From an uncultured Pelagibacteraceae bacterium (GTDB lineage Bacteria; Pseudomonadota; Alphaproteobacteria; Pelagibacterales; Pelagibacteraceae), in contig CABZCX010000001.1 of assembly GCA_902524345.1 (NCBI GenBank), positions 67,001 to 131,000 of the forward strand: DNA of 64,000 nucleotides. Reading direction: 5' to 3'. The translations under genes were made by a program, and so were the position numbers. The notes beneath the pieces are model-generated. The model ran no database searches, had not been told where the DNA came from, and saw only the letters and a program-made list of their open reading frames with translations. Numbering within the stretch: position 1 is the stretch's first letter; each line of letters starts with the position of its first letter. This document shows, one piece after another, positions 55,527-58,620 of the stretch.

Positions 55527-56635
55527 CCTTTCATTGGCATTACAATAAAAATACTATCAAAATCACTTGGATCTTTAATTAATACAGGTGAACCAGTATC
55601 ATTAAAATGTAATTCAATTTTCTCACCATCTAGCTGGGAGGCTACATCAATCAGATACCTTGAATTAAAACTAATTTCTAGGTCATGTTCAAATCTTGTT
55701 GAAATAGTTTCATTACCGTCTCCGCTGTTTGTGTTATTGACGGACAGATTTAAAGTGTCCTTTTTTAAACTAAATTTTACACCATCCTTTTTATCTAACG
55801 AAACTGATGCAACCCTGTCTACTGAATTTAAAAATAATTTTAAATCAATCTCTAATTTTTTTTGATTATTTTTGGGTATCACTTGTATATAATTTGGGAA
55901 TTTTCCATCGATCAGTTTTGAAACAAGAATGCTATTACTTAATTCGAACTTAATTTTTGATTTCATGTTTGAGATTTTTACTTCTCCATCATAGTTATCT
56001 AAAATAGCACATAATTGAAAAATAGTTTTTTTTGGTAAAATTATAGGTTCAAAATCAATTTGTTTTTCTAGTCTAATTTTTGAAATTGACATTCTATGGC
56101 TGTCAGTTGCAACAGCTGTTAAATATTTTTTTTCATCAACTTCTGTTTGGTGTAAGTAAATACCACTTAAATAATGCCTTGTTTCATCATTTGAGATTGA
56201 AAACTTACACTTATTTAATAATTTTAAAAATTGCTTAGATTTAATTGAAAATTCATTTTGATTAAAATTTTCATCTGTTACAGGAAACTCCGAATGACTT
56301 ATACAATTAAGATTGAAAGTGGATTTATCTGACTCAAGATGTAACTTATTCTTATCGTTTAAAGTTAAATTAATCTTTTTCCCAGCGGAAATTTTTCTTA
56401 CTATGTCATACATTATAGAAGACGTTGTAGTAGTTTTACCTTCCTCAAACACTTCGACATTATTGATTTGATGAATAAAAATAATATCAAGATCAGTTGC
56501 TGTTAAAATTAGTTTTGAATTATTAGCATTCAAAAGAATATTTGATAAAATTGGTAATGTTCCTCTTTTTTCTATAACTCCTTGACAGTAATTTAATGCT
56601 TGCTGTAAATCCTGTTGGTTTACACTAAACTTCAT
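55523..56635 (-). CDS. dnaN: DNA polymerase III beta subunit (sliding clamp)
   Basis: MKFSVNQQDLQQALN, ATDLDI, TDSHRM, C-terminal PMKG; downstream of dnaA. Confidence 0.96.
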   Translation of the reverse strand: MKFSVNQQDLQQALNYCQGVIEKRGTLPILSNILLNANNSKLILTATDLDIIFIHQINNVEVFEEGKTTTTSSIMYDIVRKISAGKKINLTLNDKNKLHLESDKSTFNLNCISHSEFPVTDENFNQNEFSIKSKQFLKLLNKCKFSISNDETRHYLSGIYLHQTEVDEKKYLTAVATDSHRMSISKIRLEKQIDFEPIILPKKTIFQLCAILDNYDGEVKISNMKSKIKFELSNSILVSKLIDGKFPNYIQVIPKNNQKKLEIDLKLFLNSVDRVASVSLDKKDGVKFSLKKDTLNLSVNNTNSGDGNETISTRFEHDLEISFNSRYLIDVASQLDGEKIELHFNDTGSPVLIKDPSDFDSIFIVMPMKG

Positions 56636-58043
56636 TTTCTTTTGTATTATATAATATTTGGTTCTTTAGATTGTTTATATTTTCTGCCATATCCTTATCA
56701 TTCTCTTTTAATCTCTCTATAGTTTTGACTGAATGAATTATAGTAGTATGATCTCTATTTGAAAATTCTCGACCTATTTCCGGTAAAGATTTTGGTGTAA
56801 GAATTTTTGTAAGATATATTGCAGTTTGTCTTGGTCTTACCAAATACCTTGATCTTCTTGAGGACAACATTTCATTCTTGCTAATTTTAAAAAATTTGCA
56901 CACCAAAGTCTGTATTAAATCTATTGTAACTTTATTTTCATTAATATTTAGTAAGTCCTTCAAAACTACCTTAGTTTCAGCCAAATTAGGTAATTTATTA
57001 TAAATTCTTGAAAAAGATATTAAGCGATTAATAGCGCCAACCAATTCTCTTATACTGTTAGAAATTTCAAGGCTTATAAAATCTTTAATTTCCTTTGAAA
57101 TTTCAATGTTATCTGCATAAAGCTTGTTTAACTCGTCAATTTTTTTTTCAATTATATTTTTTCTTAATTCAAGATCAGGTTTTTGTATATCTACAACTAA
57201 TCCACCAGAAAATCTGGATTTTATTCTCTCTTGAATTCTAGACAATTTGTTTGGAGATCTATCTGCAGATACTATAATTTGACTCCCTTTATCAAGTAGA
57301 GCATTAAACGTATGAAAAAATTCTTCCTGCATAGCTTCTTTTCCGTTCATAAATTGAATATCATCTATCAATAATATATCTGTGTTTCGAAAATATTCTT
57401 TGAATTTTACCATATCGTTTGCTTTTATTGATTTAATAAATTGATACATAAAACGTTCTGCTGGAATAAACATTACTTTTTTTCTTTTTTTAAATTCAAA
57501 ACCTATAGAATTTAAAAGATGTGTCTTACCCATCCCAACACCTCCATAAATATATAAAGGATTATATTGAGAGAGATTTTCGGTAACTTTCAATGAGGCT
57601 TCATAAGCAAGCTTATTACTGCTACCAGTCACAAAATTTTCAAATCTCTTGTTATGATCAACACGATTATATTGTAGAAAAGAATCCTTTAAGAATGAGA
57701 CATTTTCATTTTTTTTCAACGAAATTTCGTTATTATTTTGATTTTCTAAATTAATATTATTTTCTACAATTTTAAATTCTATCCTAATTAAGTCTTTTTT
57801 AAAAATTTTCACGATCTGTAAAATTTGGTCCAAATATCTTGATGTTATCCAATCTCTAATAAATCTGGTTGGCACTGATATCAATATATAATTATTAAAT
57901 TCCTCAATAAAATCGATTTTTTTTAACCAACTTTCATAAACTTCAGAACCCAATTTTTTTTTCATCTCATTTTGAATTAATTGCCAGTCTAATTTATTTG
58001 AACTAGATTTATTTAAATTTGAATTGTTGTAGATATTTTCCAT
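56625..58043 (-). CDS. dnaA: chromosomal replication initiator DnaA
   Basis: YIYGGVGMGKTHLLNSIG, DILLIDDIQFMNGKEAMQEEFFHTFN, GREFSNRDHTTIIHSVKTIE. Confidence 0.98.
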   Translation of the reverse strand: MENIYNNSNLNKSSSNKLDWQLIQNEMKKKLGSEVYESWLKKIDFIEEFNNYILISVPTRFIRDWITSRYLDQILQIVKIFKKDLIRIEFKIVENNINLENQNNNEISLKKNENVSFLKDSFLQYNRVDHNKRFENFVTGSSNKLAYEASLKVTENLSQYNPLYIYGGVGMGKTHLLNSIGFEFKKRKKVMFIPAERFMYQFIKSIKANDMVKFKEYFRNTDILLIDDIQFMNGKEAMQEEFFHTFNALLDKGSQIIVSADRSPNKLSRIQERIKSRFSGGLVVDIQKPDLELRKNIIEKKIDELNKLYADNIEISKEIKDFISLEISNSIRELVGAINRLISFSRIYNKLPNLAETKVVLKDLLNINENKVTIDLIQTLVCKFFKISKNEMLSSRRSRYLVRPRQTAIYLTKILTPKSLPEIGREFSNRDHTTIIHSVKTIERLKENDKDMAENINNLKNQILYNTKENEV

Positions 58044-58120
58044 TTTTATGAAGAGAGTTGAGTAAGGGCTATAATGAAAATTATTGCAACAAAATATTTT
58101 AAAAATTCAAAAAAAAATAA

Positions 58121-58137
58121 AATCTAGGATTGTGTAG
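58121..58137. repeat. 17-bp direct repeat copy 1 AAATCTAGGATTGTGTA
   Basis: Identical to 58165..58181, 44-bp period. Confidence 0.9.
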
Positions 58138-58164
58138 AATAAATAAATTTAAAAAAAAAATTGA

Positions 58165-58181
58165 AATCTAGGATTGTGTAA
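58165..58181. repeat. 17-bp direct repeat copy 2 AAATCTAGGATTGTGTA
   Basis: Identical to 58121..58137; both in dnaA upstream region. Confidence 0.9.
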
Positions 58182-58215: not shown

Positions 58216-58246
58216 AATTATAAATTTATTAATAAAATTTATAATT
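58216..58246. repeat. perfect AT-only inverted repeat AATTATAAATTT-ATTAATA-AAATTTATAATT
   Basis: 12-bp arms, 7-bp spacer, between rpsT and dnaA. Confidence 0.9.
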
Positions 58247-58359
58247 GAATTCAAAGAGTTCAGGTTATTTACTAAATCTAAATATTGTATAATAATTTAT
58301 TTTTATTACAGATTTTGTATATCCTGAGGTTGTATCTCTCAGACAACTTTTAATATAAA

Positions 58360-58620
58360 TTAAATAGATGATATTTTTTTCGTTATCCTGGAAATATTTC
58401 TGGAAGCGTTTTGTTTCTTTATTACCCCAGTTTTAGCAATCTTCATCAGTTCAGAATTCAACTTTGGTAAGAATTTTAGAGCTTCCGATTTATCTTTTTT
58501 TTCCAATAAAAGGTTCATTTTTTTTATTGCATTTTTATATCTACTTTTTCTGATTTTATTGACAGAAGTTTGTTTCGATATTCTTCTAATTCTTTTGATT
58601 GCTGATTTTGTATTAGCCAT
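58360..58620 (-). CDS. rpsT: 30S ribosomal protein S20
   Basis: MANTKSAIKRIRRISKQTSVNK...GVIKKQNASRNISRITKKI. Confidence 0.97.
   Translation of the reverse strand: MANTKSAIKRIRRISKQTSVNKIRKSRYKNAIKKMNLLLEKKDKSEALKFLPKLNSELMKIAKTGVIKKQNASRNISRITKKISSI

Follow-up and report, generated by a model that had tools for sequence, protein, structure and literature searches.

Direct Repeats Upstream of dnaA in a Pelagibacteraceae (SAR11) Bacterium Are Copies of a Conserved Element Found at dnaA Only

Introduction

In Caulobacter the dnaA gene is reported to be controlled by promoter methylation and by a cis element located upstream of the -35 region, and in Escherichia coli the dnaA promoter is autoregulated through a DnaA box and the AGATCT boxes of ATP-DnaA (PMC8203912). 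Another motif, RRF, was described in the promoters of Caulobacter replication genes, where it is bound by an unidentified factor (PMC1175088). As to the origin of replication, the gene pair hemE/COG1806 flanks both the experimentally defined origin of Caulobacter and the predicted origin of Rickettsia (PMC1914354).

The DNA analyzed in this study (the window) is a stretch of 64,000 nucleotides from an uncultured Pelagibacteraceae bacterium, and positions are counted from its first letter unless a contig or genome is named. SAR11 bacteria rank with the most abundant cells of the ocean, and their regulators are few. The timing of their chromosome replication is poorly known, and a conserved site found at dnaA only, with a rigid geometry, could serve as bait for the missing factor. 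A literature search gave neither a description of the element reported here nor a mapped SAR11 dnaA promoter.

The element is of the same general kind as the Caulobacter dnaA and RRF sites, with a sequence, a position and a taxonomic range of its own. By description, it resembles the Caulobacter dnaA case as a cis site upstream of the putative -35 region of an alphaproteobacterial dnaA, in a genome encoding GcrA and a methyltransferase of CcrM length; it differs from it in that the dnaA upstream region is devoid of GANTC and in that a ctrA orthologue was reported to be missing in Pelagibacter (PMC2877005). Like RRF, it is a conserved promoter motif at a replication gene, but RRF lies between the -10 and -35 regions of several genes, whereas this element is upstream of the putative -35 and was found at dnaA alone. 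The E. coli dnaA gene is also preceded by cis sites, and the AGATTT sequence seen here loosely resembles AGATCT; unlike in E. coli, the DnaA box is neither conserved nor enriched. Finally, this genome shares with the Caulobacter and Rickettsia origins the hemE/COG1806 gene pair and its clustered DnaA boxes, but the repeats stand at a distance from that locus, and the element is not found in it.

Results and Discussion

The Repeats in the rpsT-dnaA Intergenic Region

The sequence AAATCTAGGATTGTGTA was found twice, in identical form, on the forward strand at 58120-58136 and 58164-58180, with a period of 44 bp. Two perfect 17-bp direct repeats with this period upstream of dnaA had been noticed in an earlier sequence-only reading of the window, and both copies are indeed present, the positions given then (58121-58181) being one base off. 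This pair was the only case of exact 17-bp direct repeats at a distance of 18-119 bp in the 64-kb window, and a 17-bp repeat was reached in one out of 1000 first-order Markov resamples of the AT-rich rpsT-dnaA intergenic region. The 9-mers adjoining the 17-mers on the minus strand are TTCTACACA and TTTTACACA, in agreement with the same reading. The repeated units are longer than 17 bp and correspond, on the minus strand, to TACACAATCCTAGATTT-TA-T9 (58136-58109) and TACACAATCCTAGATTT-CAA-T10 (58180-58151). The genes around them are arranged in the order dnaN-dnaA-repeats-rpsT-fpg, the whole set being on the minus strand, and the fpg-rpsT-dnaA order is maintained among relatives. The features of the region are listed in Table 1.

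Table 1. Features of the dnaA upstream region (positions in the window).
Feature	Position	Strand	Remarks
Proximal (main) copy, TACACAATCCTAGATTTTATTTTTTTTT	58109..58136	-	Core 58120-58136; PWM score 37.3
Distal (second) copy, TACACAATCCTAGATTTCAATTTTTTTTTT, 44 bp upstream	58151..58180	-	Core 58164-58180; PWM score 29.6
Weak third copy, TTCAATTATAAATTTTATTA, intergenic	58230..58249	-	PWM score 15.2; like sequence in many relatives
TTGTTGCAATAAT block; TTGCAA (58089-58084) as putative -35 of the dnaA promoter	58080..58092	-	Conserved columns 33-41, fixed distance
CTTACT, where relatives have a TAACT-like block; tentative -10	58061..58066	-	Columns 58-64 moderately conserved
dnaA, presumed controlled gene	56625..58043	-	Pfam Bac_DnaA, Bac_DnaA_C, DnaA_N
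rpsT (ribosomal protein S20), upstream border of the intergenic region	58360..58620	-	Pfam Ribosomal_S20p

Two further features were observed on the minus strand between the repeats and rpsT. Another conserved block, TATTTAGATTTAGTAAATA (58273-58287), follows rpsT in many close relatives, and a GTTG...CAAC inverted repeat (58325-58350), without a T run, is found directly after rpsT in many relatives; the latter may form a structure at the 3' end of the rpsT transcript.

Conservation and Copy Number

The rpsT-dnaA intergenic sequences of relatives were obtained through a DnaA search and from 78 named genome contigs, 107 distinct sequences in total, the closest named relatives being single-cell genomes and MAGs of Pelagibacteraceae (SAR11). 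Both in a set of 30 diverse sequences and in the total of 107, a conserved unit was found which reads CACAATCnTAGATTTTATTTTTTTTT in the direction of dnaA, with strong per-column conservation and drifting flanks. Most of the information is at C-7 (99 of the 99 aligned copies), G+1 (94) and C-3 (85), the tract TTTTATTTTTTTTT is invariant, and column 27 is a conserved A. The repeats are copies of this upstream element of Pelagibacteraceae, which is near-universal among the sampled close relatives and was found at dnaA only. The extended lineage-specific motif that had been suspected at dnaA from a single genome was thus confirmed as a strongly conserved unit, with a fixed place in 99 of the 107 distinct sequences. 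The relatives that carry it all belong to one large genus in the tool's grouping, so that these counts are not independent. The element is decayed in one relative (L011).

Most species have one strong copy. Two to three strong copies, with a spacing of 42-46 bp, are regular only in the clade nearest to this genome (DnaA identity of 88% or more), and the multi-copy cases outside this closest clade are isolated, with spacings of 38 bp (G003) and 55 bp (L017). These sequences suggest that the extra copies arose recently and locally from a single ancestral site. The 44-bp period, noted at first sight as about four helical turns, turned out to be one value in a loose range; the rigid distance is that of 33 bp between the proximal copy and a TTG block downstream.

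Restriction to dnaA

The genome search suggested for the repeat returned two copies of AAATCTAGGATTGTGTA in the whole assembly at up to two mismatches, both of them at dnaA. On contig 1, the PWM scores of the two copies (Table 1) compare with 14.5-16.5 at unrelated sites, using two PWM lengths, and in the complete relative G012 the site at dnaA scored 35.5 versus 20.2 for the next best, which is inside a coding frame. The PWM scan covered contig 1 and G012, the other contigs of the assembly being covered by the 17-mer search alone, and no comparable intergenic site was found elsewhere in contig 1 or G012. The element was also absent from the intergenic regions between hemE and PPSR, where the best PWM score was 6.2. 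Scattered matches with up to two mismatches in other genomes were about as frequent as those of a reversed control pattern.

Since the element is found at dnaA alone, it is not likely to serve a global regulator acting at many such sites, and the site of a multi-target regulator was rejected as a candidate because no further copies precede other genes in G012 or contig 1. For the same reason, the two scanned sequences give no clue from co-regulated genes.

Geometry of the Upstream Region

In the 99 sequences mentioned above, the main copy precedes a TTnTTGCA-type block by 33 bp (rarely 34), and most of the remaining eight have GTTGCA or CTTGCA near the same site, with the first bases changed. 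The spacing between the unit and the start codon of dnaA varies more, from about 62 to 87 bp among the diverse sequences, which indicates that the TTG block is the fixed partner of the element. In a sister family (L259-L273), a TTGCGA block is present upstream of dnaA in 15 of 15 genomes, with no scoring copy of the element. We infer that TTGC[AG]A is the -35 region of the dnaA promoter; the -10 region would tentatively be the TAACT-like block of columns 58-64, a poor match to TATAAT. With the block as the putative -35, a conserved sequence at a fixed 33-34 bp from it is the arrangement of an upstream promoter element. A genome-wide search for promoters de novo in G012 returned no usable -35/-10, and this result together with the unconvincing -10 means that the -35 assignment may be wrong.

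In one relative (L255) the element and the TTG block are closer by exactly 10 bp, about one helical turn. All 15 genomes of the sister family have, about 200-220 bp upstream of dnaA, a ATTGCGATTCA block, which is a GANTC site overlapping the putative -35.

Proposed Function and Candidate Factors

From its sequence context, the element is probably an upstream site of transcriptional control of the dnaA promoter, recognized by a DNA-binding protein, both the promoter and the factor being predicted. With TTGCAA as the -35, the element would be centred some 70-75 bp ahead of the start of transcription, a position that would suit a protein touching RNA polymerase from upstream (class I-like). The T-tract and the intervening A/T-rich stretch would then act as a UP-like or bendable segment, and the duplication or triplication of the unit in the clade of this genome probably strengthens or buffers binding. 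Because the spacing is rigid, an interaction with polymerase, or with another protein located at the TTG block, is favoured over a free-standing operator. Judging from position alone, the element is a little more likely to activate than to repress. It is possible, though doubtful, that SAR11 has a dedicated regulator which reads this site, present at dnaA only, and governs the synthesis of DnaA; this would amount to a replication switch with a single target, unrelated to autoregulation by DnaA and amplified in copy number in one clade.

The genome encodes a GcrA homologue (G000:C1:29401-29835), a DNA methyltransferase of the N6/N4 type with a length like that of CcrM (356 aa frame; G000:C1:392878-393540) and four regulators with an OmpR-type DNA-binding domain, all of which are candidate factors only. 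The GANTC expected for a CcrM/GcrA-type methylation control of dnaA was absent from the rpsT-dnaA region of this genome.

Among the relatives, GANTC is found upstream of dnaA in 89 of 107, mostly well upstream of the element, and it is enriched there (178 versus 46 expected in the 107 genomes); in the G012 genome as a whole it is about twofold depleted (1642 versus 3486 expected). These sites are often present as a GATTCAAT pair with a separation of 16 bp, at about 70 and 85 bp from the element on its upstream side (for example in L008 and L190).

DnaA Box-Like Sequences in the Element

According to a different explanation, DnaA would tune its own promoter by binding to weak non-consensus boxes, TTTTACACA and TTCTACACA, extended by AATCCTAGATTT. 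The control of dnaA by boxes in its own promoter is established in several bacteria (PMC8203912), and TTTTACACA matches TTWTNCACA in this genome. This explanation appears unlikely in view of the relatives: the box-like 9-mer is perfect in none of the 99 that were aligned, with one mismatch in 11 and two or more in 88, its TTAT half is poorly conserved (position -13 favours A), and CACA becomes TTCA in divergent relatives. A 9-mer that is never perfect, with a drifting TTAT half and a CACA to TTCA change, suggests that the box resemblance in this genome is mostly coincidence, and a DnaA box as the conserved core was ruled out by the per-column conservation. In the rpsT-dnaA region of 31 relatives, DnaA boxes were no more frequent than expected either, with no perfect TTATNCACA and 18 one-mismatch sites versus 18.2 expected, and the hemE-PPSR origin, rich in DnaA boxes, does not contain the element. 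The near DnaA box noted in each repeat by the sequence-only reading is thus not the conserved part. A role in the control of dnaA, which that reading also proposed, stands as the best interpretation, while DnaA as the binder found no support in the comparison.

Structural and RNA-Level Explanations

A purely structural element, that is an A-tract bend or a UP element read by polymerase without a dedicated protein, would agree with the invariant tract and the conserved A of column 27, in a UP-like though putative position. We consider it quite unlikely, as the G/C-containing core (C-7, C-3, G+1) is conserved as strongly as the tract, which is more than bending or alpha-CTD contacts alone would require. 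In a by-eye comparison with the IHF consensus, the A that follows WATC is T or C in the element.

A feature acting at the RNA level, either an rpsT terminator or a dnaA leader with a structure of its own, the T-tract serving as U-tract, is very unlikely. Each unit ends in a T9-T10 tract, and A-T-rich hairpins around the core are possible in some relatives, but no consensus structure was obtained from 30 aligned relatives (the column-shuffle control was uninformative, with an energy of zero throughout). A terminator scan for a G+C-rich hairpin directly before a T run returned 0 sites, no Rfam match was found, and neither the fixed distance to the downstream block nor the conserved loop sequence is needed by terminators.

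Location of the Replication Origin

The origin was analyzed in the complete relative G012 (1,343,202 bp) and in contig 1 of this genome (451 kb, the first 400 kb being scanned for boxes). In G012, DnaA boxes are most densely clustered at 1,261,888-1,262,125, and over the first 400 kb of contig 1 at the equivalent locus G000:C1 188,355-188,592. The cluster lies between hemE (uroporphyrinogen decarboxylase, PF01208) and PPSR (Kinase-PPPase, PF03618; DUF299/COG1806), the classical site of the origin in Alphaproteobacteria. In this genome the locus is outside the window, 63 kb from the repeats. In the hemE-PPSR regions of 26 relatives there were 26 perfect TTATNCACA boxes, distributed over 19 genomes, versus 0.45 expected, and 108 sites with up to one mismatch versus 20 expected.

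The symmetric-arm GC-skew fit of G012 gave 1,288 kb for the origin. Its 95% bootstrap interval, about 1,238-1,327 kb, contains hemE-PPSR (1,262) and leaves dnaA (1,200) outside; the skew check proposed for the surroundings of 58 kb of the window, made in this relative, pointed away from dnaA. The free two-arm fit gave 1,232 kb, and the AT skew was too noisy to exclude dnaA. A dif site was looked for and not identified. Judging by sequence, the intergenic region between hemE and PPSR appears to be the oriC of SAR11, and on the same grounds the dnaA region is not oriC, a location that both the census of DnaA boxes and the fit of the GC skew ruled out. The suggestion that the repeats are part of oriC was abandoned, since box cluster, hemE/PPSR neighbourhood and skew fit all point 63 kb away. 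In particular, an origin-unwinding module, with a DnaA box followed by DnaA-trio-like T-rich DNA, is extremely improbable: dnaA is within the broad skew trough and the T-tract accommodates a permissive NTN-trio pattern (box with up to two mismatches within 16 bp of at least three NTN triplets; rule from PMC8287927), but T9 gives it trivially, the box is not conserved and such a pattern says little in DNA this AT-rich. An oriC at hemE-PPSR and not at dnaA would provide an anchor point for growth-rate estimates from peak-to-trough coverage.

In the hemE-PPSR region of this genome (G000:C1:188,356-188,677; L157) and of 25 relatives (L153-L178), clustered TTATTCACA boxes were observed, and a trio-like run (for example TTATTCACATTCCCTAATAATACTACAATC) often comes after one of them, in the manner of the origin-unwinding module already described.
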